Source: Gulosibacter sediminis (GTDB lineage Bacteria > Actinomycetota > Actinomycetes > Actinomycetales > Microbacteriaceae). From it: 64,000 bases of DNA. The notes beneath the pieces were generated by a model. It had not been told where the DNA came from, did no database searches, and was given only the letters and a program-made list of their open reading frames with translations. The translations under genes were made by a program, and so were the position numbers. Positions 3,956 through 57,244 of this stretch are shown here, one piece after another. The stretch covers positions 372,001 through 436,000 of the forward strand of contig NZ_CP097160.1 in assembly GCF_023370115.1 (NCBI RefSeq), written 5' to 3'. The stretch's first letter is position 1, and each line of letters opens with the position of its first letter.

Positions 3956-5108
3956 CGTCGACCCGGGCGCGCGCCTCGACGACGTCGAGCTCTTCGACCA
4001 TCACTGCCACGGCGTCGTCACGAACGACCTCGAGCGCGACGAGTTCGAGGCGCTCATCTCCGAGTCCTCGCGCCCCGCGACCGCCGGCACGACCCGCTTC
4101 GACTCGCAGGTCGGCTTCCAGATCCGCGCGAAGTGTGCGCCCGTGCTCGACCTCGAGCCGTTCGCGACGCCCGAGGCGTACCTCGCCCGGCGCCGCGAGC
4201 TCGGCGCCGACGAGGTGAACGCGCGTCTCCTGCGCGCCGCGAACATCCGCACCCTCGGCATCGAAACCGGCCACGCCGCCGACACGATCAACACCGTCGA
4301 CGACATGGCGCGGCTCACCGGCGGCACGGCCCACGAGATCGTGCGCCTCGAGCGCCTCGCCGAGCAGGTTGCCGAGGCCGCGCACGACTCGGGCACGACG
4401 GCGGCCGAGCTGCTCGAGGCCATCGAGGCCGAGCTGGATGCGCGGCTTGCGCACGCGGTCGGCGTCAAGTCGATCGCGGCGTACCGCATCGGCCTCGACT
4501 TCGACGCCGCGCGGCCCGCGCACGCTGAGGCGGTCGCCGCGGCCGGGCGGATGCTCCAGGCGAGCGCGCCGCTGCGGCTCGACGACCCGGTAATGATTCG
4601 CCACCTCATCTGGCTCGCCATCGACCGGGCGAGCGTGCTGCAGTTCCACATCGGCTACGGCGATGACGACGTCGATCTCGATCGCTGCAACCCGCTGCTG
4701 CTCACGAAGCTGCTGCGCGCATCTGCCGACACCGGCGCCCGCTTCGCGCTGCTGCACTGCTACCCGTTCCACCGCGAGGCGGGCTACCTCGCCGACGTGT
4801 TCCCGCACGTCTACTTCGACGTCGGGCTCGCCGTGAACTACACCGGCGCCCGCTCGGCCGCGATCGTCGCCGAGTCGATCGAACTCGCGCCGTTCGGCAA
4901 GATCCTGTTCTCGAGTGACGCGTTCGGCGCGGCCGAGCTCTACTACCTCGGCACCGAGCTGTTCCGCGCTGGCCTGGCCGAGACGCTCCGGCGCTTCCAT
5001 GAGGTCGACGGCTGGCCCGTCGACGAGTGCCGTCGCGTGGCCCGCATGATCGGCTACGACAACGCCGCCCGACTCTATGGCGTCGACGACCGGGAGGCGG
5101 GCCGGTGA
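3945..5108 (+). CDS. Amidohydrolase, FluG N-domain / nodulin-6-like
   Basis: 387-residue metal-dependent hydrolase of the amidohydrolase-2 superfamily. The N-terminus carries the HxH metal motif (FDHHCHG, His20 and His22). Other likely ligands are the His residues of FHIGYGDDD and LHCYPFHREAGY and the Asp of FSSDAFGAAE near the C-terminus. The start is a GTG (3945) inside the end of the GS-like gene, giving an 11-base overlap and tight coupling. In fungal FluG proteins an amidohydrolase of this type is fused to a GS domain; here the two are adjacent separate genes. Likely role: hydrolysing or releasing a gamma-glutamyl or amide intermediate made by its partner. This function is inferred. Confidence 0.8.
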   Translation: MFSNVDPGARLDDVELFDHHCHGVVTNDLERDEFEALISESSRPATAGTTRFDSQVGFQIRAKCAPVLDLEPFATPEAYLARRRELGADEVNARLLRAANIRTLGIETGHAADTINTVDDMARLTGGTAHEIVRLERLAEQVAEAAHDSGTTAAELLEAIEAELDARLAHAVGVKSIAAYRIGLDFDAARPAHAEAVAAAGRMLQASAPLRLDDPVMIRHLIWLAIDRASVLQFHIGYGDDDVDLDRCNPLLLTKLLRASADTGARFALLHCYPFHREAGYLADVFPHVYFDVGLAVNYTGARSAAIVAESIELAPFGKILFSSDAFGAAELYYLGTELFRAGLAETLRRFHEVDGWPVDECRRVARMIGYDNAARLYGVDDREAGR

Positions 5109-6298
5109 GCGAGGCACTCGACACCCTGCGCGAGCAGTGGCTCACCGCGCTCGCGGCCGAGCTTCCCGGCGCCGTGCAGTTGCGCCGCGAACTTCACCAG
5201 ACCCCCGAGCTCAGCGGCGCCGAGGCCGGCACCGCGAAGCGCGTCGCCGAGGCAATGGGCATCGAGATCACGCCCGTCGCCGACACCGGCGGTTACGGCC
5301 GCATCGGCCCGCGCACCGGCCCGAGTGTCGGCCTGCGCGGCGAACTGGATGCGCTGCCCGTTGCCGAGGCGACCGGCCTTGACTGGTCGTCGACGAACGG
5401 CGCGATGCACGCGTGCGGGCACGACGTGCACCTCGCCGCGCTCACCGCGGTGGTGCGCGCGGCCCGCGGGCTCGAGCTGCCCTACGCACTCGTGCCGCTG
5501 CTGCAGCCGCGCGAGGAGGCGTATCCCTCGGGCGCCCGCGACATCGAGGAGGCCGGCGTGCTCGGCGCGCAACGCGTCGCACACGTCATCGGCGTGCACG
5601 TGCATCCGGGCGTCGCGCTCGGTGCCGTGTCGACCGGCGCGGGCTTCGTCAACGCCGAGGCCGGCGAGCTCGAGATCGAAGTCGCGGGCCAGGGCGGCCA
5701 CGGCGCATATCCGCACGCGGGCGCCGACGTCGCGGCCGCGGTCGCACAGATCGTCATGGGCCTACCCGAGATGCTGCGCCGCGTCGTCGACCCGATGGAG
5801 CCGGTTGTCATCAGCGTCGGCACGATTCAGGTCGGCAACGGCGCGGCGAACGTGCTGCCCGACCACGGGCGCATCCTCGCGACGATCCGCACGACGGGGC
5901 CCGGCACGACCGAGCGGCTCGTCGAGGCGATCAGCCGCTTCGCCGCGGCGCAGGCCGCGGCGTATGACTGCACCGGCACCCTCCGCCACACCGAGGGCGA
6001 GCCGGCGCTCATCAACGACCACGAGCTCGTCGAGGTGCTCGACGCCGAGATCGAACGGGCCGAGCTACGCCCCACCGAGCCGATGCGCTCGCTCGGCGCC
6101 GACGACTTCTCGTTCTTCAGCGAGGTCGTGCCGAGCGCGATGTGTTTCGTCGGCGTGCGCAGCGCGGGTAAGGCCTCGCTGCACGACGCGACGTTCCTGC
6201 CCGACGACGGCGCGCTCGAGCGCGTCGCGCGCACGTTCGTCGCCGGCTACCTCGCCGCCTGCCAGCGCCTCGAGGCCGCGGGGGTGTCGGGTGAGTGA
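5105..6298 (+). CDS. M20-family amidohydrolase (aminoacylase/carboxypeptidase-like)
   Basis: 397-residue zinc- or manganese-dependent amidohydrolase of the M20D (IAA-amino acid hydrolase, hippurate hydrolase) type. Metal-binding residues are seen in MHACGHDVH (Cys104, His106), in the acidic PREEAYPSGA loop (catalytic Glu region) and in HGAYPHAGAD, the lid-domain histidines. A GTG start overlaps the previous stop (GTGA). It would cleave an N-acyl or gamma-glutamyl amide, giving a free amino acid or amine for the aminotransferase and decarboxylase further down the operon. Family confidence is high; the substrate is unknown. Confidence 0.88.
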   Translation: MSEALDTLREQWLTALAAELPGAVQLRRELHQTPELSGAEAGTAKRVAEAMGIEITPVADTGGYGRIGPRTGPSVGLRGELDALPVAEATGLDWSSTNGAMHACGHDVHLAALTAVVRAARGLELPYALVPLLQPREEAYPSGARDIEEAGVLGAQRVAHVIGVHVHPGVALGAVSTGAGFVNAEAGELEIEVAGQGGHGAYPHAGADVAAAVAQIVMGLPEMLRRVVDPMEPVVISVGTIQVGNGAANVLPDHGRILATIRTTGPGTTERLVEAISRFAAAQAAAYDCTGTLRHTEGEPALINDHELVEVLDAEIERAELRPTEPMRSLGADDFSFFSEVVPSAMCFVGVRSAGKASLHDATFLPDDGALERVARTFVAGYLAACQRLEAAGVSGE

Positions 6299-7184
6299 CC
6301 AGGCCGCGGCCGACCGCAGCGTCGCCGAGCTCATCAAGCTGCACTTTGCTGAATTCACGGCGGCCGAGAAGCGCACCGCCCGCGCGCTCGTCGCCGACTA
6401 CCCGGCGGTCGGGCTCGGCACCGTGACGCAGCTCGCCGAGCGCGCCTCGGTGAGCAGCGCGACGATCGTGCGCTTCGCCCAGTCGCTCGGCTTCGACGGT
6501 TTCCGCGAGTTTCAAGACCGCCTGCGCCACGAGCTCGGCACGCGCGAGGACTCGGCGCTGAGCCAGGCGCTGCGGCGCGAATCCGCGTCGGGTAGCGTCA
6601 AGGTCGGCACGCTCGCGGCCTCGCAGCGCGCCTTCACCGAGGGAATTGAGCGCACCTTCGACTCGCTCCGCGATGACGAGGTGCGCCAGCTCGTGAGCTG
6701 GCTCGCCGACCCGAAGCTGCGCATCACGGCGCGAGGCGGGCTCTATTCGGGCCTGCTCGCGCAGCACCTCGTGAAAGAGCTCCTGCTGTTCCGCCCGAAC
6801 GTGCTCGAATGCCCGCGCGACCCGGTCGAGCTCGCGACGCAGCTTGTCGACACCGGCGCGAAGACCGACGTGTGGGTCGTGTTCGACTTCCGCCGCTACA
6901 CCACCGAGACCGAGCGCATCGTGCGGCAGGCGAAGTCGCACGGCGCGCGCGTCGCACTCATCACCGACCGCTGGCTTTCGCCGATCGCTGCCATCGCCGA
7001 CGTCGTCATGAGCTGTCGCGTCGAGGCGAACGGCCCCTCCGACAGCCTCGTGCCGGGCCTCGCCCTCGTCGAGGGTCTCTGCGAGCTCGCCGTCGAGCAG
7101 CTCGGCGACGCGGGCATCGCGCGCCTGCGCCAAATCGATCCACTGCGCACCGCACTCGAGTCGGGCATCCGGGAGGACTCATGA
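6291..7184 (+). CDS. MurR/RpiR-family regulator with SIS domain
   Basis: 297-residue regulator. Residues about 15-90 are the RpiR helix-turn-helix (TQLAERASVSSATIVRFAQS, then GFDGFREFQ). The remainder is a SIS phosphosugar-binding-like domain: RITARGGLYSGLLAQHLVKE is the first nucleotide-fold segment, followed by VWVVFDFRRYTTET. It begins with GTG at 6291, overlapping the M20 gene by 8 bp, and ends in an ATGA overlap with the aminotransferase. It is therefore co-transcribed with the enzymes and likely autoregulates the operon. SIS domains usually bind phosphorylated sugars, so the effector is unclear in an amine operon. RpiR members in amino-acid clusters are common in this phylum. Confidence 0.85.
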   Translation: MSDQAAADRSVAELIKLHFAEFTAAEKRTARALVADYPAVGLGTVTQLAERASVSSATIVRFAQSLGFDGFREFQDRLRHELGTREDSALSQALRRESASGSVKVGTLAASQRAFTEGIERTFDSLRDDEVRQLVSWLADPKLRITARGGLYSGLLAQHLVKELLLFRPNVLECPRDPVELATQLVDTGAKTDVWVVFDFRRYTTETERIVRQAKSHGARVALITDRWLSPIAAIADVVMSCRVEANGPSDSLVPGLALVEGLCELAVEQLGDAGIARLRQIDPLRTALESGIREDS

Positions 7185-8503
7185 CCGCGCCCCAGGCACT
7201 CACCGACGCTGCGCGCGAGGTCGAGCTCGCCGCCTACGCCGACGACCAGAATGCGGTGGCCGGCGTCGAGCACCTCCGCTTCTTCCCGCTCGTGGTCGCC
7301 TCGGGCCACGGCTGCACGCTCGTCACGCCCGCGGGCCGCGAGCTGCTCGACTTCTCGGCGAGCTGGACCGCCTCGGCCTTCGGGCACGGTAACCCGGGGA
7401 TTGCGGATGCGGTGCACGCGGCCGCGCTGCGTGGCGCCGGTGCCTCGGTGCTCTCGTCGGCCGTCACCGAGACGACCCGGCTCGCGCAGCGCCTCGTCGA
7501 CCTCGTGCCGGTGCGGCTCGCCGAGCGCGCCTACCTCGGCCTCGGCGGCACCGACGCAAACACGGTCGCCATCGCCGCCGCCCGCAGCGCGACCGGCCGC
7601 GCGGGCATCCTGTCGTTCAGCGGGAGCTACCACGGCGGGCACGGGCCCTCGGCCGCCGTCTCGGGCATGGGCGTCGAGCCCGGCGCGAGCGCGCACGGCC
7701 ACGTGCTCGAGTACCCGGTCGACGCGGCCGGCCTCGAGCGCGTCGCCGAGGAGCTCGAGGCCGCGCTCGCCCCGCGCGAGACCGCCGCGGTGATCGTCGA
7801 GGCGGTGCAGTGCGACGGCGGCGTGCGCGTGCCCCACGCCGACTTCTTGCCGACGCTGCGCCGCGCGTGCGAGGACACCGGCACGCTGCTCATCGTCGAC
7901 GAGGTGAAGGCGGGGCTCGGCCGCACCGGCCGCCTGTTCGCCTTCGAGGCGAGCGGTATCGAGCCCGACCTCGTTACGCTCGGTAAGTCGCTCGGCGGCG
8001 GCCTGCCGCTCTCGGCCGTCGTCGGCCCGGCGTCGGCGCTCGGCTCGCCGCGCGCATCCGCCCTGCTCACCACCGCGGGCAGCCCGGTGCCGGTCGCCGC
8101 GGCCCACGCGGTGCTCGACCTGCTCGCCGACGGCACGCTCGCCCGCAACGCCGCCGGGCTCGAGGCGCCCGCGCGGCAGCGGCTCGCCGAGGCCCGGGCG
8201 GCCGGGCGGCCCGGTGCCGCCGCGATTACCGAGGTGCGCGGCCGCGGCCTGCTGCTCGGCGTCGAGTTCGGTGACGCCGGTGGCAGCACGGGCGCCGAAC
8301 TCGCCGCCCTCACCGTGTACCGCGCGTGGGAGCTCGGTTGCGTGCTCTACGTCGTGCGCGACAACGTGCTCGAGATCACGCCGCCGCTCGGCATCACGGC
8401 CGCCGAGTTCGAGGCCGGCCTCGACGTGATCCTCCGCGCCGCCGACGACGCGGTCGCGGGCGACGTGCCCCGCAGCATCCTCACCGAATTCGGCGGCTGG
8501 TAG
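7181..8503 (+). CDS. Class III PLP aminotransferase
   Basis: 440-residue fold-type I PLP enzyme of the omega-aminotransferase (GabT/ornithine aminotransferase/DAPA) class. Visible elements are the phosphate-binding GLGGTDANTVA near residue 120, SGSYHGGH near 148, the cofactor Asp in LLIVDEVKAGLGRTGRLFAFE (Asp240) and the Schiff-base lysine in TLGKSLGGG (Lys269). It acts in the cytosol, moving a terminal amino group to a keto acid to give an aldehyde. It overlaps the RpiR gene by 4 bp and precedes the decarboxylase by 30 bp. That order fits a diamine or omega-amino acid route, in which the decarboxylase makes a diamine that is then transaminated. Substrate not determined. Confidence 0.9.
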   Translation: MTAPQALTDAAREVELAAYADDQNAVAGVEHLRFFPLVVASGHGCTLVTPAGRELLDFSASWTASAFGHGNPGIADAVHAAALRGAGASVLSSAVTETTRLAQRLVDLVPVRLAERAYLGLGGTDANTVAIAAARSATGRAGILSFSGSYHGGHGPSAAVSGMGVEPGASAHGHVLEYPVDAAGLERVAEELEAALAPRETAAVIVEAVQCDGGVRVPHADFLPTLRRACEDTGTLLIVDEVKAGLGRTGRLFAFEASGIEPDLVTLGKSLGGGLPLSAVVGPASALGSPRASALLTTAGSPVPVAAAHAVLDLLADGTLARNAAGLEAPARQRLAEARAAGRPGAAAITEVRGRGLLLGVEFGDAGGSTGAELAALTVYRAWELGCVLYVVRDNVLEITPPLGITAAEFEAGLDVILRAADDAVAGDVPRSILTEFGGW

Positions 8504-38839: not shown

Positions 38840-38949
38840 CTGCAAAACTCCGTGCTTTTGCTTTGGTTCGCTCGGTGGAATTGTTGCAGTACTGGGCCGC
38901 ACCGACGCGTCCCCACCGCACCGTGACACCGCCGTCCGAGGAGCACACC

Positions 38950-40221
38950 ATGACCGCGACCTGCCCGTTCTTTGCCGGTTCTGCGACCGCCGTCGCCGAG
39001 CCCGAGTACACGCCCTACGAGGCGCCTGCGCCGCTGCCCGGCACGTACATCGCCGACTGGGTGACGCTCGAGGACCTCACGCGCGACCCGTTCCCGACGT
39101 TCGCGAAGCTGCGCCAGGAGCATCCGGTGCCGTATGTGCCGGCGGCCGGCCGCTACTTCGTGACGCGCTACGAGGACGTGCACACCGTCGACAACGACCC
39201 CGACACCTTCACGGCGAACGAGCGCGGCTCGCTCATGAAGAAGTCGATGGGCCACTCGATGCTGCGCATGGACGACCCGAACCACGCCGTTCAGCGGGCG
39301 ACCTACGGCAACGTGCTCAAGCCGAAGGCGATCAAGGCGAGCTGGCGCCAGGTGTTCGAGGAGAGCTACGAGCGCTACGCCGCCGTGCTGCGCGAGGTCG
39401 GCCCGGGCGTCGAGTTCGTACACCACTTCGCTGGCCCCTACGCGGCCGAGAACCTGCGCCGCGTCATGGGCTTCGAGAACGCGACCGACCAAGACATGAT
39501 CCGCTGGTCGCAGACGATGATTAACGGCACCGGCAACTACGCCGACGACCCCGACGTGTGGGCCGAGGCGAAGCGCAGCTACGACGAGGTGAACACCGCC
39601 CTCGACGAAATGATCGCGCACTACTGGGAGCACCCGAACGAAACGCTTATCTCGAACATCATCCACACGTCGAACGGCGACGAGGTGACGCTCGCGAACA
39701 TCCGCGCGAACCTCAAGATGTCGATCGGCGGCGGCATCAACGAGCCGCGCGACGCGATCACGACGATCATGATGGGCCTGTTCGGCGAGCCCGAGCAGCG
39801 CGCCGCAGTGCTCGACGGCACCCGCACGTGGAAGGAAGCCTTCGAGGAGGGCGTGCGGTGGATCGCCCCGATCGGCATGTACCCGCGCCAGACCACCCGC
39901 GAGGTCGAGCTCGGCGGCACCGTGCTGCCGGCCGGCGCGAAGCTCGGCGTCGTGGCACTCTCGGCGAACCGCGACGAGTCAGTGTTTGCGAACGCCGACC
40001 GCTACGACCTCGGCCGTGAGAAGCAGCCGCACCTCGCGTTCGGCGGCGGCGTGCACTTTTGCGCCGGCGCGTGGCTCGCCCGCTCTCAGGTGGCCGACGT
40101 CGCTCTGCCCCGGCTGTTCGCCGAGTTCCCGGGCCTGCGCCTCGACCCCGAGCAGCAGGCCGTTGAGACCGGCTGGGTCTTCCGCGGCATGACGCACATG
40201 CCGATCACGTGGGACGCCTAG
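38950..40221 (+). CDS. Cytochrome P450
   Basis: 423-residue soluble bacterial P450. The heme ligand is Cys371 in AFGGGVHFCAGAWLAR. The K-helix ExxR is Glu300-Arg303 (EEGVRW). The I-helix reads SIGGGINEPRDAI (258-270), where the usual acid-Thr pair is Glu-Pro; this form occurs in some P450 families with non-hydroxylating or demethylating activity. The ATG at 38950 follows GAGGAG; an in-frame ATG 29 codons earlier is less likely. It is the first gene of a complete class I system with the ferredoxin (36 bp after) and the reductase. Substrate unknown; LysR regulation is likely. Confidence 0.92.
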   Translation: MTATCPFFAGSATAVAEPEYTPYEAPAPLPGTYIADWVTLEDLTRDPFPTFAKLRQEHPVPYVPAAGRYFVTRYEDVHTVDNDPDTFTANERGSLMKKSMGHSMLRMDDPNHAVQRATYGNVLKPKAIKASWRQVFEESYERYAAVLREVGPGVEFVHHFAGPYAAENLRRVMGFENATDQDMIRWSQTMINGTGNYADDPDVWAEAKRSYDEVNTALDEMIAHYWEHPNETLISNIIHTSNGDEVTLANIRANLKMSIGGGINEPRDAITTIMMGLFGEPEQRAAVLDGTRTWKEAFEEGVRWIAPIGMYPRQTTREVELGGTVLPAGAKLGVVALSANRDESVFANADRYDLGREKQPHLAFGGGVHFCAGAWLARSQVADVALPRLFAEFPGLRLDPEQQAVETGWVFRGMTHMPITWDA

Positions 40222-40257
40222 GCCGCCCCCGCTTACTCTTCCGAAAGGACACCCCGT

Positions 40258-40575
40258 ATGCCCAGCATTACCTACCGCCGCGTTGACGGCACCTCGGCCA
40301 CCGTCGTCGTCGACGAGGGCACCTCGATCATGCGCGCCGCCCTGCAGAACGATGTGGCCGGCATCGTCGGCGAGTGCGGCGGCCAGGCCATGTGCGCCAC
40401 CTGCCACGTCTACGTGCCCGAGGGCGTCGAGCTGCCCGAGGTGAGCGACGATGAGGACGAGATGCTTGAGTGCACCACCTCGGACCGCCTCGACAACTCG
40501 CGCCTCGGCTGCCAGTTGCTCGCCGGCCGCGACTTCGACGAGCTCACCGTCGACCTGCCCGAATCGCAGGTGTAG
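40258..40575 (+). CDS. [2Fe-2S] ferredoxin, putidaredoxin type
   Basis: 105-residue electron carrier with the vertebrate/putidaredoxin cysteine pattern: Cys40, Cys46 and Cys49 (ECGGQAMCATCHVYV) and Cys85 (SRLGCQL). The acidic patch EVSDDEDEMLE (61-71) is the docking surface for P450 and reductase. AAAGGA precedes the ATG. It passes electrons from the FAD reductase encoded 2 bp downstream to the P450 encoded upstream. Confidence 0.95.
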   Translation: MPSITYRRVDGTSATVVVDEGTSIMRAALQNDVAGIVGECGGQAMCATCHVYVPEGVELPEVSDDEDEMLECTTSDRLDNSRLGCQLLAGRDFDELTVDLPESQV

Positions 40576-40577
40576 CG

Positions 40578-41783
40578 ATGCGCGTCGTCATCGTGGGCGC
40601 CGGGCACGCGGGCGTGCAGGCGGCCGAGACGCTGCGCGACGAGGGCTTCGACGGCGAGATCGTGCTGCTCGACCGTGACGCGCGGCTGCCGTATCAGCGC
40701 CCGCCGCTGTCGAAGGACGGCCTCGCCTCGGGCGACGAGCCGCTGCCCCTGCGCGGCGCCGTGTTCTACGAGCGCCTCGGCATCGAACTGCGCCTCGGGG
40801 CCGAGCTGCGCGGCATCGACCCGGGCGCCCGGGTAATCGAGCTCGCGGATGCGCAGGGCGAGCGCTCGCACATCACTTACGACGAGCTCGTGCTCGCGGT
40901 CGGCGCACGCGCCCGGCGCCTGCGCTGCGGCGACGCCCAGGCCTCCCGCGTGCACGTGCTGCGCACGGCCGACGACGCCGAGATACTTCGCGACCGGCTC
41001 GCCGACGCCGAGCGTGTTGTCGTGGTCGGCAGCGGCTTCATCGGGCTCGAGTTTGCGGCCGTCGCGGCGACGAAGGGCAAGCGGGTCACGCTGCTGAGCC
41101 GCGGCTCGCGCGTGCTCGGGCGCTCGGCCTCGGCGACGACCGCCGACTGGCTCACGGCGCACCTGCGCGCGGCCGGCGTCGAGTTCGTCTTCGGCGTCGA
41201 GGCCCTCGCCGACGAGCGCGACCTGGCCGACTGGCCCGCCGACCTCACCGTCGTCGGCATCGGCGTCGACGACTGCCCCGTGTTTGCCGACGCCGCCGGA
41301 GCCGCCGGCCTCGCCACCGACCGCGGCGTCATCGTCGACGCGTCGCTGCGCACGAGCCTGCCGGGCATCTGGGCGATCGGCGACATCGCGCGCTTCCCGG
41401 ATGCGCGGGGCGAGTTCCAGCGCATCGAATCGGTGCAAAACGCCACCGAGCAGGGCCGCCACGTGGCCCGCGCCATCGTGCACGGCGCGAGCGACTACGA
41501 CGAGGTGCCGTGGTTCTGGTCGATCCAGGCCGGCGCGAAGCTCCAGATCGCCGGCCTCGCCGACGGTGCCGACGCCGAGGTCGTGCTCGGCGATCCCGCC
41601 GCGGGCAAGTTCTCGGTGCTGCGGTTCGCGGGGGAGCGGCTCGTCTGCGTCGAGTCGGTGAACAAGCCGGCCGACCACGTCGCCGCCCGCAAGCTGCTCG
41701 CATCCGCGGGCGCCGCATCCGTCACCCCGGCCGCCGCGGCCGAGCCCGGCTTCACGCTGAAGTCGGCGCTCGTGCCCGCGTAA
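40578..41783 (+). CDS. NAD(P)H-dependent ferredoxin reductase (putidaredoxin reductase-like)
   Basis: 401-residue FAD/NAD-dependent reductase. FAD motif: VVIVGAGHAGVQAAETLR at the start. RLPYQRPPLSKD is the conserved loop. The NAD motif is VVVVGSGFIGLEFAAVAA (about residues 150-167). The second FAD motif is IWAIGDIARFPD. The C-terminal reductase domain ends in the usual short tail. It starts 2 bp after the ferredoxin stop. It completes a three-component P450 electron chain, and a bidirectional terminator follows. Confidence 0.93.
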   Translation: MRVVIVGAGHAGVQAAETLRDEGFDGEIVLLDRDARLPYQRPPLSKDGLASGDEPLPLRGAVFYERLGIELRLGAELRGIDPGARVIELADAQGERSHITYDELVLAVGARARRLRCGDAQASRVHVLRTADDAEILRDRLADAERVVVVGSGFIGLEFAAVAATKGKRVTLLSRGSRVLGRSASATTADWLTAHLRAAGVEFVFGVEALADERDLADWPADLTVVGIGVDDCPVFADAAGAAGLATDRGVIVDASLRTSLPGIWAIGDIARFPDARGEFQRIESVQNATEQGRHVARAIVHGASDYDEVPWFWSIQAGAKLQIAGLADGADAEVVLGDPAAGKFSVLRFAGERLVCVESVNKPADHVAARKLLASAGAASVTPAAAAEPGFTLKSALVPA

Positions 41784-46553: not shown

Positions 46554-48329
46554 GTGACAACCGAGAACTTCCAGGTTGACCTGCGCGGCATCGTCGAGAT
46601 CCTCTCGCACCATCTCTACTCGAGCCCGCGGGTATTCGTGCGCGAGCTCATCCAGAACGCGAGGGATGCGCTGGTCGCGCGCGAGCGCCTCGGCCAGTCC
46701 ACCGCATCCGGCTTTCAGGCGCCGATCGAGCTCATCGTCGACGAGCCGCACCGCGCGCTGCTCGTGCGCGACGCCGGCATCGGACTCACCGAGCAGGAGG
46801 CCCGGCAGCTGCTGTCGACCATCGGCGCGTCGAGCAAGCGCGGCGAGTTCGCGCAGGCCCGCCGCGACTACCTCGGCCAGTTCGGCATCGGCCTGCTCTC
46901 GTGCTTCCTCGTCGCCGACCAGATCGAGGTGCGCTCGCGCAGCGCCCGCGAGCCGAACGCCCCGACGATGCACTGGATCGGCAGCGGCGACGGCACCTTC
47001 ACCGTGACCGAGGCGGCGGGCCCGCTCGCCGCACCCGGCACCGAGGTGTGGGTGCGGGCGCGGCCCGAGGACGCCGACTGGGTGAGCTACGACCGCGTCG
47101 AGCTGCTCGCATCGAAGTTCGCCGAGCTGCTGCCGGTGCCGATCACGGTGCGCCGCGGCGCCGACACCGGCCCCGGCCGAGTCGTGAGCCGGCATACCCC
47201 GCCGTGGCAGCTGGCCGAGCCGGATGCGCTCGAATGGTGCTCGCGCACGTTCGGCATTTCGCCGCTCGCGGCCTTCCCGATCGACGTGCCCGTCGCGGGC
47301 GTGCGCGGCCTCGCGTTCGTCTCGAGCAACTCGATCTCGACGAAGCACCGCGGCGGCGACCGCGTCTTCTCGAACGGCATGTTCGTCGCCGACGACAACA
47401 CCCAGCTCGTGCCCGAGTGGGCGACATTCGTGAAGGTCGCGCTTGAGGCGGGCTCGCTGCCGCTCACCGCATCCCGCGAATCCCTGCAAGAGACCGAGCT
47501 CGTGCGCGACGTGCAGGCCGAGGTCGGCCGGCAGCTGCGCACCGGCATCGAGCGCCTCGCGGCCGAGGGCGGCGACCGCTTCGCCCAGTTCCTCGACGTG
47601 CACTCGACGAACCTGCTTGCGATGGCCGCTGCCGACGACGCGATGCTACAGTTCGTCGCGCGCCACTACCTCTGGGAGACGAGCTCGGGCCTCGTGCCGT
47701 TCGCGCAGATGCCGAGCAAGATCAGCTACGCCTCGACGGTGGGGGAGTTCAGCGCGAACGCCCCGCTCGTCGCGGCGCAGGGCGGGATGCTCGTCAACGG
47801 CGGCTACACGAACTCGATCGTCGTGCTCGAGGCCTTCAGTCGCGCCCAGACGCGCGTGCGGGTGAGCCCGTTCTCGCGCACCGAACAGCTCGACGCACTG
47901 CCGCAGCCGAAGCCCGAGCGGCGGTCGCTCGCCGAGCAGTTGCGGGCCGTCGCGACGCCGGTGCTCGACGACCTCGGCGTCGGGCTCGACCTGCGCGACT
48001 TCGCCCCGGCATCGGTGCTTTCGCTGCACGTGCCGCCCGCGCCCGCCGGCTTCGACTTCTCCGACGAGGCTGCCGACGATGACCCGTGGGCCGCCCTCAT
48101 CGGCGACGCCAAGAAGCCCGACCCCGTCGACCGACGCCCGAAGCTCGTGCTCAACGTGCGCGCCAACGCGGTGCGCGCCGTCGTCGCCGCGCGCACGCCC
48201 GAGCTGCAGCAGCAGGCCGTGCGCGCCCTCTACCTCCTCAGCCTGCTCCAGGCAGGTCAACGACTCAACGCTGATGAGCAGCGAACCCTGGCGGATGCGC
48301 TGGGCGAGTTGCTCGTCGCGGCCACCTGA
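46554..48329 (+). CDS. HSP90-family ATPase (HtpG-like)
   Basis: 591-residue GHKL-fold chaperone-like protein. N-terminal ATP site: Glu31 and Asn35 (RELIQNARDAL), Asp73 (VRDAGIGLTEQEA) and GQFGIGLLSCFLV (109-121) as lid and G-boxes. The middle domain has SNSISTKHRGGDRVFSNGMF and PLTASRESLQET, which carries the catalytic-loop Arg. It is shorter than HtpG and its C-terminal third has diverged. The start GTG (46554) has a -10-like TATCTA about ten bases upstream and little leader, so the mRNA may be leaderless. The next gene (a helical-repeat protein) starts 11 bp downstream and is likely its partner. Confidence 0.88.
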   Translation: MTTENFQVDLRGIVEILSHHLYSSPRVFVRELIQNARDALVARERLGQSTASGFQAPIELIVDEPHRALLVRDAGIGLTEQEARQLLSTIGASSKRGEFAQARRDYLGQFGIGLLSCFLVADQIEVRSRSAREPNAPTMHWIGSGDGTFTVTEAAGPLAAPGTEVWVRARPEDADWVSYDRVELLASKFAELLPVPITVRRGADTGPGRVVSRHTPPWQLAEPDALEWCSRTFGISPLAAFPIDVPVAGVRGLAFVSSNSISTKHRGGDRVFSNGMFVADDNTQLVPEWATFVKVALEAGSLPLTASRESLQETELVRDVQAEVGRQLRTGIERLAAEGGDRFAQFLDVHSTNLLAMAAADDAMLQFVARHYLWETSSGLVPFAQMPSKISYASTVGEFSANAPLVAAQGGMLVNGGYTNSIVVLEAFSRAQTRVRVSPFSRTEQLDALPQPKPERRSLAEQLRAVATPVLDDLGVGLDLRDFAPASVLSLHVPPAPAGFDFSDEAADDDPWAALIGDAKKPDPVDRRPKLVLNVRANAVRAVVAARTPELQQQAVRALYLLSLLQAGQRLNADEQRTLADALGELLVAAT

Positions 48330-48340
48330 AAGGAACACCG

Positions 48341-50572
48341 ATGATTCGATACGACGAGGTCGCCGACCTCGAGGGCGAGCAAGCGATTCGCGTCCGCGCC
48401 CTCATCGACCGCAGCTCGGCGATCTGGGACATGCCGCTCGACCGCGACACCGCGGATGCGTGGGAACAGCAGGTCGCCGACTGCGAGGCCGAGGGTGTGC
48501 CGCACCTCGCGGCGAGCGCCCGCTACGGGCAGTACTCGCTGTTCTCGCAGTCCGGCAAGGCGCAGGAGGCGCTCGAGGCGTATGCGCGCCTCATGCAGAT
48601 CATCGCCCGCTACGGCGACCACCTGCACCCCGAGAACCTCGCGACCTTCCTCGAGTCGATCAGCACCGTCGCCTCGACGCTCGTCGACGACCCGCGCATC
48701 CCGCGCGCCCAGCTCGAGCAGGTCGTCGGCCTCGTCGAGGCGCAGATCCGCGAGCGGGGCCTCGACCTCGGCGAGGCGTTCCTCGCGAAGGCCGAGCTGA
48801 GCGCCGACTTCGGCGACCGCGACGCAACGCTGCAGCACCTCAACGAGTGGCTCACCACCGACAACGACTACTGGCAGCCCGGCAGCCCGTACAGCTCGGT
48901 CTACGAGAGCTCGATGCTCGTGCGCGTCGACCCGCAACTCGCGCTGCGCACGCTCGAGCAGCGGCTCGCCGGCCTCGGCGTCGGCCCGGGCCCCCTCGAC
49001 CCCAACCACCCCGAGCTGGCGCACCTCGTGAGCCTCCGCGCGCGCCAGGGCGTGCTCTACGCCCGTGCCGGCCAGCGTGCGGTCGCCGCGCAGATCGGCG
49101 ACGAGCTGCGCGAGCAGTTCGAACTCGACTCGCTCATCGACGAGATCGAGGCCCAAGATCTCCTGGTGGTGCTCGAGCACCGCCGCGACGAGGCGGAGGA
49201 GTTCGCCGACCACCTTCTCACCCAGCTCTACCTCGACGAGACGAACTGGCGCACCACCGCCGCGGTCGCCCGCGTGCGCGTGCTCGCCGACCCGGCGAAC
49301 GACGAGGGCTGGCTGCTGTTCAAGATCGCCGAGGATGCGGCGGAGCTGCACGACGAGCGCGGCGGGGTCGCGACCCGCCACCTCGACGAGCTGCGCGAGT
49401 TCTGGCTCGAGGGCCTGCCGCATGCGCCGAAGCTCGACATCGTCGACGACGCGGCGGTCTGGGGCGACCCTCAGGCCCGTGCCGAGCACATCCTGCAGGC
49501 CGGCTGGCTGCCGCGCCAGACTCACGGCGTTTCGATCGACGGTGCCCCCGTCTCGATGAACGAGCGCTACTACGAGTCCATTTCGGCCGTGCAGGAGCTG
49601 AGCGAGGAGTCGACGCAGCCCGAGCTCGTCGACAAGATCATCGCCCGTGCGCAGGAGTTGCGCCTCACGACCGTCGTGTTTGGCACGCTCTTCGTCGGGG
49701 CGATGCAGCACGCCGTCGTGGGTGAGAACCGCGCCATGCTCGAGGGCCTCGCGCGCACCCAGCGTCTGCGCCTCGACGACAACGACGCGATCGAGCCCGG
49801 CGTGCGCGCCGCCGGCGAGGGCGGCTACGTCGAGGTCGTGCACCAGGCCCTCGGCGACCCGGAGGTGTCGATCGACTCGGTCGCCGAGTTCATCACCCGC
49901 GAGCACGAGGTGCGCGCGAAGGTCGGCGGCTCGACGAGCCAGCTCGCGCTCGGCCAAGCGGAGGTCGCGGCCCAGCTCGGCAATGTCGACGCGCTCAAGG
50001 AGCTCCTCACCACGTTCACGCGCTGGCTCGAACACGAGAGCGAGCAGGTCGACGAGCACAAGCTGCTGCTCCAGGCCGCGGGCCTCGTCGCCCCGTTCAG
50101 CCCCGACTACACGGCGGCCCTTGCGAGCCAGGTGCTCGACGAGACGCACGACGCCGAGCACCGCCGCGCCGCGCTCGCCTGGGTGGCGTGGCGCGAGCTG
50201 CAGGACGGCCGCGCCGAGCGGGTGCCCGAGGTCGTCGCGAGCATCGAGGAGATTGACCGCGACCTCAGTGAGTTCGGCTCGGTGCCAGACTCGGTGCTCG
50301 TGCAGCTCGCGGAGACGGACCCCGACGAGCTCGCGTGGGTCGTCGAGGCCGCGCTCGACAATGTCGACTACGAGGGGGCGCCGGTCGACATCGACATCTT
50401 TGCGACCGCCGCGCACTTCCTGCTCACGCATCGGCCCGACGACCCGCGCGGGCCCCAGTTCCGCGACGAGGCGCAGCGCATTGCCGCGGAGCTCGATGCG
50501 CGCAACGGCAACAGCTTCCAGAGCTGGCGGCTGCATACGCAGTGGCTGCGCGACGCGCAGCAGCAGGGCTAG
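48341..50572 (+). CDS. Large TPR-like alpha-helical repeat protein
   Basis: 743-residue cytosolic protein of unknown function, rich in Glu, Asp, Leu and Ala, with repeated helix-turn-helix units (for example ASARYGQYSLFSQSGKAQEALEAYARLM near residue 60, which fits a TPR consensus) along most of its length. No catalytic motif, signal peptide or membrane helix is seen. It follows the HSP90-like gene by 11 bp with GAAAGGA as ribosome binding site, and ends overlapping the convergent RDD gene by 4 bp. TPR proteins are classic HSP90 cochaperones in eukaryotes, so a client-adaptor role is a reasonable inference. The tail ends in WLRDAQQQG, not an MEEVD-type peptide. Confidence 0.75.
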   Translation: MIRYDEVADLEGEQAIRVRALIDRSSAIWDMPLDRDTADAWEQQVADCEAEGVPHLAASARYGQYSLFSQSGKAQEALEAYARLMQIIARYGDHLHPENLATFLESISTVASTLVDDPRIPRAQLEQVVGLVEAQIRERGLDLGEAFLAKAELSADFGDRDATLQHLNEWLTTDNDYWQPGSPYSSVYESSMLVRVDPQLALRTLEQRLAGLGVGPGPLDPNHPELAHLVSLRARQGVLYARAGQRAVAAQIGDELREQFELDSLIDEIEAQDLLVVLEHRRDEAEEFADHLLTQLYLDETNWRTTAAVARVRVLADPANDEGWLLFKIAEDAAELHDERGGVATRHLDELREFWLEGLPHAPKLDIVDDAAVWGDPQARAEHILQAGWLPRQTHGVSIDGAPVSMNERYYESISAVQELSEESTQPELVDKIIARAQELRLTTVVFGTLFVGAMQHAVVGENRAMLEGLARTQRLRLDDNDAIEPGVRAAGEGGYVEVVHQALGDPEVSIDSVAEFITREHEVRAKVGGSTSQLALGQAEVAAQLGNVDALKELLTTFTRWLEHESEQVDEHKLLLQAAGLVAPFSPDYTAALASQVLDETHDAEHRRAALAWVAWRELQDGRAERVPEVVASIEEIDRDLSEFGSVPDSVLVQLAETDPDELAWVVEAALDNVDYEGAPVDIDIFATAAHFLLTHRPDDPRGPQFRDEAQRIAAELDARNGNSFQSWRLHTQWLRDAQQQG

Positions 50573-55637: not shown

Positions 55638-55700
55638 GACGAACTCCGGCTTCCTCAAGACGAACTCCGGCATTGCTAAGACGAACTCCGGCAACATTAG
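55638..55700. repeat. Three 21-bp tandem repeats (GACGAACTCCGG core)
   Basis: GACGAACTCCGG begins at 55638, 55659 and 55680, an exact 21-bp period; the other 9 bases of each unit vary. On the minus strand they read as the heptad PEFVLxx repeated three times, in a 90-codon open frame (55425-55697) whose ATG overlaps the HNH stop (TAATG). That frame overlaps the RES remnant and has no known family, so it is not called as a gene. The repeat could be the start of a lost small protein or a non-coding repeat element. Confidence 0.7.
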
Positions 55701-57244
55701 AACGGCGCGGGGTCGTTGATCGCGTCATAGCTCTGGTTGTCGACGGGTTTGAAGATCGGTCCGACTGGTCTTGGTTCGACGGTGACCCATTCGCCGCGCG
55801 GGGTTCGCCACCTGACTTTGCCGCCACCGAGTTGCTCGCACGCCCACGGACGCTGATGTTTCAGCGTGTGGTGTTTTGGGCAGAGGTGTCCCAGGTTTTC
55901 GACATCGGTGTTGCCGCCCGCGGCCCACGGTTTCGTGTGATCAAGTTCGCTTTGATGTGCGGGTCTGCGGCAGCCCGGGAATAAACACACTTGGTCCCTG
56001 GCTTGCAGGAATCTGCGCATCGATGGGGTCGGGGTGCGGGTATCGACGGTCAACACGTGCCCGGTGATCGGGTCGGTGAAGATTCGTTGGAAGCACTTCG
56101 CCTTTGAGACCATGTCGCGGGCCTCGGTCATGCTGACCGGCATCATCCCGTTCAGTGTCGCGACATCACGCGGTGCGTCCGGGTTGAGGAGGTTCAGGAC
56201 CGGGATGACGATGCTCACCGTCGCGGTCACGCGCGAGTGGCCCTTGGCGTCGTACTCGCGCATGCTCTGCGGCGTCGTGGTGAGGAAGGTCTCGACGAAC
56301 AGGTCGGCCATCAGCTGGCGCACCGTGCGGGGGTCTTCGATGAACTCGGCGTCTGCAGCAGAGAGTGCTTCCCCGCGTGCTTGTGCGTCGCGGACGCGGC
56401 GCCGGTGTTCGTCGGCCTCGGTCACGTGCTCCTCACGGAGCGCTTTGGCTTGCTGCTGCATGAGGTCGTACATCGCGTGGGCCTGCAGCGTTGGGATGTC
56501 GGCGGTGATGCGCGACATGCCGAACTCGCGGTCCTCGATCTTGACGTGGCGGGCCTGGTATTCGTGCTCGAACGCGGCCTCAAACTCTTCGGCCCCGAGT
56601 TCGGCGGCGAGTTTGCGGGCGTAGGTGTCGGTCGCGGCGACGGTCTCGCCCGTCGCGAACTCGAGCACCTTGGTCGCGTAGTCATCGCGGCGCCCGTCGG
56701 GCACGATGCCCGCATGCCGCAACAGCGCGCGAGCATGCCGCATCGTCACCGCCGCCTCGCGGAGTGGGTCGAGCCACACAACAAAATCGGTACCCAGTCG
56801 ATGCGCGTCATACGCCCGGTTCAGGAGCGCGGTGTCGGACTCGTTCGTGTGAATCCCGAACTCCGCCACGATCGACCGCAGGTTCAACCGCAGCAAATCG
56901 TCCGGGCTCGCGACCGAGGAACGTTCCTGCAGTTGCGCGTGCGTCCGGTGCTCTGCGACCGCGTAGGCCTGCGCGAGGCCAATCATCTTCATGTACGCGC
57001 CGACTTGTTCAAGTTTCGCCCCGTTCAACACCATGCCCTCAATCGCCGCGAGCGCGTCATTGAGCCCGTCGGTCTCGGGTGGCGGCGTGGTGCCGTCTGG
57101 TCGGTGCTTTGGTGTGCGACGGCTCGGCTCGTCAGGAGCAGCGCCTGTGCCGGGCGGGGGCGTGGTGCCGTCTGGCCGCTGCTTCGGTACACGACGAATC
57201 GGCTCATCAGCATCAGAGCCTCGTGGGGGAGTCGTTGCGGTCAT
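55697..57244 (-). CDS. DUF222/HNH endonuclease domain protein
   Basis: 515-residue protein of the actinobacterial DUF222 (13E12-repeat-like) group. The N-terminus has two 25-residue repeats (RRVPKQRPDGTTPPP and RRTPKHRPDGTTPPP). Residues about 60-380 are the helical DUF222 domain. The C-terminal HNH nuclease is complete: CLFPGCRRPAHQSELDHTKPWAAGG with the two Cys and the His-rich SELDH, and LCPKHHTLKH. GAGGAGG precedes the ATG. These proteins are highly multiplied in Microbacteriaceae and thought to be selfish or mobile, but their function is unproven. Confidence 0.9.
   Translation of the reverse strand: MTATTPPRGSDADEPIRRVPKQRPDGTTPPPGTGAAPDEPSRRTPKHRPDGTTPPPETDGLNDALAAIEGMVLNGAKLEQVGAYMKMIGLAQAYAVAEHRTHAQLQERSSVASPDDLLRLNLRSIVAEFGIHTNESDTALLNRAYDAHRLGTDFVVWLDPLREAAVTMRHARALLRHAGIVPDGRRDDYATKVLEFATGETVAATDTYARKLAAELGAEEFEAAFEHEYQARHVKIEDREFGMSRITADIPTLQAHAMYDLMQQQAKALREEHVTEADEHRRRVRDAQARGEALSAADAEFIEDPRTVRQLMADLFVETFLTTTPQSMREYDAKGHSRVTATVSIVIPVLNLLNPDAPRDVATLNGMMPVSMTEARDMVSKAKCFQRIFTDPITGHVLTVDTRTPTPSMRRFLQARDQVCLFPGCRRPAHQSELDHTKPWAAGGNTDVENLGHLCPKHHTLKHQRPWACEQLGGGKVRWRTPRGEWVTVEPRPVGPIFKPVDNQSYDAINDPAPF
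57081..57212. repeat. 75-bp-period duplication in the 5' end of the HNH gene
   Basis: Units 57081-57137 and 57156-57212 share the core GCGTGGTGCCGTCTGG and several other stretches, and encode the two RRxPKxRPDGTTPPP units of the HNH protein. The exact 25-codon offset indicates an in-frame tandem duplication of a disordered N-terminal segment. Confidence 0.75.

Follow-up and report, generated by a model that had tools for sequence, protein, structure and literature searches.

In a 64,000-nucleotide stretch of the Gulosibacter sediminis genome (contig NZ_CP097160.1, positions 372,001 to 436,000 of the forward strand), referred to below as the window, an HSP90 family gene is followed on the same strand, 11 bp downstream, by a gene for a 743-residue helical protein. 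The two genes probably form a self-contained chaperone module, in which an HSP90 of the NF010683 branch works in physical contact with a dedicated co-chaperone or adaptor. This reading as one machine, drawn from sequence comparisons, is based on the gene-for-gene inheritance of the pair, the tight coupling of its genes, its independence of gene order, and a partner with a constant core and differing tails. The HSP90 branch is already known, though little studied, and its pairing with this partner appears to be undescribed: no account of the pair was found in open-access full texts, a search that left most subscription papers outside. To our knowledge, the common view of bacterial HSP90 is of a chaperone that does without co-chaperones dedicated to it. 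A branch inherited gene for gene with one partner would provide a minimal, testable HSP90/partner pair, and suggests that some bacteria possess a dedicated HSP90 helper, usually thought to be a feature of animals, plants and fungi.

Conservation of the gene pair

Branch HSP90 genes scoring over the model cut-off were present in 24 genomes (27 loci) of a class-wide sample of 197 genomes. The partner was searched for with a profile (A5) of its N-terminal core, built from 35 sequences of paired loci, and the ten best candidates per genome were scored, which gave 29 core loci in 25 genomes. The next gene on the same strand encoded the partner core at 26 of the 27 HSP90 loci and, counted from the other side, 26 of the 29 core loci adjoined a branch HSP90. 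Both genes occurred together in 23 genomes, compared with 24 having the HSP90 and 25 having the core (n = 197; Fisher p 1.2e-26). Ordinary HtpG loci were used as controls, namely 20 of the 28 class-sample matches of about 165-197 bits that were under the cut-off (L059 being kept apart). All 20 matched the HtpG model NF003555 at E 1e-20 or better; the one for which bits are shown scored 789.5 (cut-off 371). A partner core was found within 5 kb at none of these 20 loci. Near one of them (L108) there was a reading frame with matches to the tetratricopeptide repeat (TPR), which hit the full partner profile at E 4e-10 and was without the core.

In a sample of Microbacteriaceae the branch was found in 24 of 199 genomes, giving 23 further loci, all of them paired. 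The partner was downstream at 20 of these, with the core found in all 20, and upstream at three, which belong to genus g163; in this reversed order the HSP90 start codon possibly overlaps the partner stop by 4 bases. Among 11 genomes of the genus, five carried the HSP90, the same five carried the partner, always adjacent, and six had neither gene; in one genome (G396) the gene order was reversed. In total, the core-type partner was the same-strand neighbour at 53 of 54 actinobacterial loci, downstream at 49 and upstream at four. An earlier first-pass annotation of the window had proposed conservation of the gene pair as a check, and set against none of the 20 HtpG loci this outcome favours the pairing. 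The 54 loci consist of 27 from the class, 23 from the family, three from the genus and L032; a locus on the same contig as L032 (G394/L126) was uncounted, a partnerless HSP90-like gene under the cut-off (L059) was left out, and L058 was counted as a miss. The partner at L040 is represented by two overlapping reading frames and was left so.

The two genes are also tightly coupled. Taking as the partner start the first start codon not more than 12 bases before the end of the HSP90 stop, the first usable start overlapped or abutted that stop in 29 of 47 loci and lay within 30 bp in 43 of 47. Trees of the HSP90 and of the partner core from 45 pairs agreed with r 0.89 over 990 distances, a value as high being reached in none of 999 permutations, and had 29 of 42 splits in common. 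Genomes with two copies (G018, G073, G191 and G269) had an own partner for each HSP90. No third conserved gene was found by mechanical gene calling among the flanks of 52 loci: in the clusters of flanking genes the partner spanned 19 genus groups, its window-type form three, and no other cluster more than six. The mechanical caller chose the antisense frame of the partner in several loci.

A site empty of the pair was seen in the congener G216, which has neither gene. There, the relatives of the aldehyde dehydrogenase, major facilitator superfamily (MFS) transporter, RDD and SpoIIM-like genes of the window are consecutive, and 73 bases separate the MFS and RDD matches. Three congeners were checked in this way, and the flanks were close together only in G216; G294 was without the MFS gene and G353 had just a 25% match elsewhere. 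Within about 4 kb of the pair in G390, G391 and G396, none of the window flanking genes was found. Judged by these gene neighbourhoods, the pair is behaving as a unit, at different sites and in both gene orders.

The HSP90 protein

The window HSP90 passed the curated cut-off of NF010683, "HSP90 family protein", with 500.3 bits (cut-off 455; E 7e-150), and residues 3-589 were aligned on model positions 5-594 of 604, which is near full length. With the HtpG model NF003555 it reached 186.6 bits over residues 3-378 only, missing the cut-off of 371. By these model scores the protein is a member of the known branch NF010683 and not HtpG proper. The first-pass annotation, which had called it an HtpG relative, was therefore right that it is a real relative of HSP90, but not about the branch. 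In a quick maximum-likelihood run on 77 HSP90s, rooted on HtpG, the split between branch and HtpG had an SH-aLRT (Shimodaira-Hasegawa-like approximate likelihood ratio test) support of 100, and the window protein joined genus g163, also at 100, with a warning of long branches from the program. Solved TRAP1 chains align with residues 4-402 of the window protein. A PF00183 search of the 2.75-Mb genome returned the window HSP90 as its single match, and since this one is of the branch type, the organism appears to be without an ordinary HtpG.

Residues Glu31, Asn35, Asp73, Gly75, Gly77, Gly108, Gly111, Gly113 and the middle-domain Arg308 are all present and were identical in 54 of 54 branch proteins, as expected from the intact ATP site that had been claimed for this gene. 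These 54 proteins, which were also used for the counts of length and tail, come from 51 actinobacterial loci plus Listeria, Streptomyces globosus and Paenibacillus, the three genus loci being left out. The nine positions were likewise identical in 20 of 20 ordinary HtpG proteins and in three of three more distant relatives. The roles of the compared residues, catalytic or in the ATP site, are those we assume from HSP90 biochemistry, and on this assumption the residues needed for an ATP-driven clamp cycle are present in the HSP90. The C-terminus had been described as divergent and shortened. The NF003555 match indeed stops at residue 378 and the branch is shorter, but the shortening is modest and branch-wide, the median length from about the domain start being 609 amino acids in the branch and 642 in HtpG. 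An EEVD-type C-terminal motif was found in none of the 54 branch HSP90s.

Two distant HSP90-like proteins differ at their C-terminal end. One, encoded on a Pseudanabaena plasmid (L086, 4932-7565), has a TIR-like C-terminal stretch (PF10137, E 0.001, below the cut-off), and its gene is adjoined by a TIR-domain gene; in the L059 protein a C-terminal TIR-like stretch was recognised by eye. A fusion of this kind between HSP90 and TIR could act in defence.

The partner protein

All Pfam matches of the 743-residue partner were below cut-off, the best being TPR_12 with 11.5 bits (cut-off 30.1), and no enzyme domain was found over the Pfam cut-off. Its AlphaFold2 (AF2) model was all helical, at low confidence. 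When the two halves were compared by hhalign, copy 1 matched copy 2 with probability 98.9 and E 3.8e-17; in control comparisons with TPR arrays, the probability was 2.4 for the second half and 8.1 for the first. Because each half matches the core of the partner family as well as the other half, and TPR arrays match neither, the protein consists, by profile comparison, of two tandem core domains; it has no recognisable TPR array and no CxxC. Near the end of copy 1 the sequence HDERGG is aligned with the family motif FDxRNG. A "split core", with a single core and a long insert, was considered on the basis of the first hidden Markov model match (residues 31-176) and an end motif at 707-734, and was given up when the half-by-half comparison gave two copies. 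The description of the protein as a TPR-like helical repeat thus stands in part: it is helical, and its core is remotely TPR-like, as the core family matched TPR arrays with an hhalign probability of 66.6, but what is present is a tandem duplicate of the core and no canonical TPR.

The partner family is defined by this core domain of about 340 amino acids, followed by variable C-terminal parts, in most cases a TPR array, of 201-684 residues (45 loci). Pfam TPR_12 was matched at E 0.01 or better by 30 of 39 partners, and the 20 Pfam families found in these 39 at E <= 0.01 were mostly TPR or similar repeats, the rest being mainly single-member matches. Among the best 60 of 162 matches of the family profile to solved TPR proteins, the matching positions were 445-905, C-terminal to the core. 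The partner at L077 has a YbjN domain C-terminal to the core, and the Listeria proteins stop at the core end. Three cysteines, arranged as CxxC plus one C (C170, C173 and C205 of L034), were invariant in 39 of 39 members of alignment A3; that they make up a metal site is a guess. The window-type form was seen in the window, in g163 and in the genus relatives. No full-length family model for the partner was present in the Pfam and NCBIfam releases that were searched.

In two genomes (G095 and G196:C4) lone cores are fused to a YbjN domain (L112, 7893-9542; L113, 7797-9548), and the core of Actinomyces oris (L123, 3259-7976) is two genes away from a YbjN gene, which may point to a connection of the core with YbjN proteins.

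Pairs beyond Actinomycetota

In Listeria monocytogenes two genes in tandem come after a branch HSP90 (799 bits); their products, of 324 and 320 amino acids, matched the partner profile at E 8e-52 and 8e-51. In Paenibacillus cellulosilyticus a 354-codon frame downstream of the HSP90 contains the core (E 3e-64). The Listeria pair is located among housekeeping-type genes beside fri. In published reports, lmo0942 adjoins fri (PMC3534079), with the same 202-base spacing as in the Listeria record examined here, and is listed among heat-shock genes (PMC10393277), and the function of lmo0941 is termed unknown (PMC6901971).

HSP90-like genes of Pseudomonas aeruginosa (L088) and Xanthomonas vasicola (L087) scored 293 and 277 bits, under the NF010683 cut-off. 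They belong to a second, gamma-proteobacterial type of HSP90-like/TPR pair; the loci concerned are L087 (3947-8170), L088 (3881-8122) and L121 (about 4989-7268). A partner of this type was also present in Nonomuraea, where no HSP90 was found in the stretch examined, and around its CxxC this partner is similar to the core. In P. aeruginosa we take PA1069 to be the partner that goes with the HSP90-like gene. Reportedly, heat shock reduced PA1069 about 4-fold and raised htpG (PMC4957987), and PA1069 was among the proteins recovered with BatR (PMC13411936).

Upstream regions and functional context

Upstream regions were scanned for HspR-associated inverted repeat (HAIR) operators, using what we take to be the HAIR consensus, and for sites resembling the controlling inverted repeat of chaperone expression (CIRCE). 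A HAIR operator was located 5' of the pair at L074 (0 mismatches) and L075 (1 mismatch), in two genomes of one genus, and no other HAIR site at 0-1 mismatch was seen in the 781 kb of loci scanned. The operator lies between the pair and a divergent clpB-like gene, clpB being read from the sequence. With up to three mismatches, HAIR/CIRCE-like sites were found in 5 of 52 upstream regions, that of L059 included in the scan, and at 0 of 20 HtpG loci; those at L044, L067 and L072, with three mismatches each, were set aside. No such site was found 5' of the window pair. A role in protein quality control is favoured because of the family membership, the ordinary neighbourhoods examined and the HAIR operator in two genomes.

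The locus in the window

Both reading frames and their spacing were as given in the first-pass annotation when coordinates and starts were read again (Table 1). The pair is flanked by an MFS transporter gene and an RDD-type gene, both named by eye.

Table 1. Features of the HSP90/partner locus, in window coordinates.
Feature	Position	Strand	Basis
HSP90 family protein (NF010683/PRK14083), 591 aa, GTG start	46554..48329	+	Open reading frame, NCBIfam match, residue comparison
N-terminal GHKL ATPase domain, residues ~4-200; E31, N35, D73xG75xG77, G108QFGIG113	46563..47153	+	TRAP1/HtpG chain alignment, residue counts
HSP90 middle-domain match PF00183, residues 271-363, including Arg308	47364..47642	+	Pfam, residue comparison
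Divergent C-terminal region, residues ~400-591, without EEVD-type tail	47751..48326	+	NF003555 match stops at residue 378
AAGGA, ribosome-binding-like, for second gene	48330..48334	+	Read in the sequence
Putative dedicated HSP90 partner, 743 aa, ATG start	48341..50572	+	Open reading frame, neighbour conservation
Predicted partner core domain copy 1, residues ~23-349	48407..49387	+	hhalign against core family: probability 98.3, E 1.4e-14
Predicted partner core domain copy 2, residues ~427-730; LDARNGN at end	49619..50530	+	hhalign against core family: probability 97.7, E 1.8e-12

Elsewhere in the window, three genes in a row at 38863-41783 look by eye like those for a cytochrome P450, a 2Fe-2S ferredoxin and a ferredoxin reductase, and a 515-residue open reading frame on the minus strand at 55697-57244 has a C-terminus that appears, also by eye, HNH-like.

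Possible roles of the pair

According to the proposed mechanism, the first gene would provide the ATP-driven HSP90 and the second its dedicated partner. The core would dock on the HSP90, and the tail (a TPR array or YbjN) or a second core would recruit clients or hold them during the ATP-driven clamp cycle of the HSP90. The partner would then be a co-chaperone or adaptor, analogous to the eukaryotic TPR co-chaperones and acting by another mechanism. Given the duplication of the core in the window type and the two single-core genes in Listeria, it is our guess that the two tandem cores contact both protomers of the HSP90 dimer. For the wider proposal we see about an even chance: an HSP90 co-chaperone system of Actinomycetota and Bacillota in which the core docks and a swappable tail chooses the clients, which arose independently of the EEVD/TPR mode and has a parallel, possibly related, in gamma-proteobacteria. 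The partner and the unnamed genes beside HSP90 in Listeria and Streptomyces would thereby gain a testable role.

Several observations weigh against the proposed module. The AF2 models, each computed from the window and L032 sequences, had low confidence (pLDDT 46.8 for the partner and 38.1 for the HSP90). The window partner itself was a weak match to the core profile (E 2.4e-9), and the window type lacks the three otherwise invariant cysteines, CxxC being found in none of the five window-type partners of alignment A4. At the single miss (G149/L058) the neighbour of the HSP90 is a 297-residue protein with two TPR matches just above Pfam cut-offs, and not the core. In the class sample 3 of 29 cores were lone ones (G089, G095 and G196:C4), and the flanks of the cores found in Priestia megaterium and Actinomyces oris, about 5 kb to either side, contain no HSP90. 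The profile was made from paired loci and scored on only the ten best candidates per genome, so that the count of lone, diverged cores is probably too low. Among 52 loci, two close relatives alone had a HAIR site at 0-1 mismatch, and there the operator may serve clpB alone, as the region is common to the pair and the divergent clpB.

The strongest of the rival explanations, which we nevertheless regard as unlikely, makes the partner the obligate client, or the effector, of an HSP90 with a single client: the chaperone would be there for the folding, assembly or holding of the helical protein, and the actual function, perhaps that of a sensor or scaffold, would be carried out by the latter. The pairing at nearly all loci and the own partner of each HSP90 in two-copy genomes speak for it; the core occurs without HSP90, and the mean tree distances are 1.3x higher in the partner core than in the HSP90, as would suit this explanation. 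However, the differing C-terminal parts on a constant core suit an adaptor better than a single end product, and the Pfam families found in the partners are mostly TPR or similar repeats.

A conflict or anti-phage module, made of an HSP90-like ATPase and a helical protein as sensor and relay, is improbable. It would be in keeping with the patchy presence of the branch (24 of 197 and 24 of 199 genomes), with the presence or absence of the pair as a block at different sites within one genus, and with the TIR-like tails on the distant relatives at L086 and L059 and the TIR-domain gene beside the former. The partner, however, had no match in PADLOC, and the HSP90 had just N-terminal ATPase-type matches, to TmtA and type II restriction models. 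At three other sites, whose flanks were the ones tested, 0 of 10 flanking proteins matched PADLOC at E 1e-5; eight of them belong to metabolic, enzyme or transport families and two are of unknown kind. The housekeeping-type surroundings of the pair beside fri in Listeria also argue against defence.

Plain co-transcription of products without working contact is very improbable: bacterial operons often group proteins that never touch, and contact between the products of this pair is itself a matter of inference, but the near-exclusive tie to one partner family, seen in two phyla, at several sites and whichever gene comes first, speaks against it.

Comparison with known systems

Within NF010683/PRK14083 the window HSP90 scores low and shares a sub-clade with genus g163, and the partner is unmentioned in the model name and description as shown. 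With canonical HtpG (NF003555) it shares its domains and the compared ATP-site and catalytic residues; it differs in reaching only half of the NF003555 cut-off, in standing on the opposite side of the tree and in having the partner core beside it, which HtpG loci are without. According to Chen, Zhong and Monteiro (2006, PMC1525184), HTPG Groups A and C include Firmicutes, Actinobacteria and gamma-proteobacteria, the variable regions are shortest in Group C, and S. coelicolor has two HTPG copies of 638 and 615 amino acids. The taxa, the short length and the two S. coelicolor copies match the two kinds of HSP90 seen here, and the branch probably corresponds to Group C of that study, judging by taxon spread and length only. 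Neither "TPR" nor "tetratricopeptide" occurs in the main text of PMC1525184 as far as it was available.

The pair of P. aeruginosa and X. vasicola likewise has a divergent HSP90-like gene; the second gene starts 24-36 bp further on and encodes a protein of 764-774 amino acids with sub-threshold TPR matches. Any homology between that protein and the core is a weak one (hhalign probability 9, E 0.0037, from two sequences).

The first-pass annotation had drawn a parallel with the TPR co-chaperones of eukaryotes. The dedicated neighbour was found and a co-chaperone role for it is plausible, but the comparison cannot rest on the EEVD tail, which 0 of 54 branch HSP90s have. Bacteria are described as having no Hop ortholog in the abstract of PMC7688965, and this is uncontradicted here because the partner is another protein. 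The eukaryotic system also differs in that the partner core is another domain and in the gene-for-gene pairing seen here. As in the case of Hop, the FKBPs and PP5, an HSP90 is accompanied by a helical, TPR-related protein, and the pair would, if the proposed module is true, be an independent bacterial example of HSP90 being served by a helical adaptor, one with a different domain.

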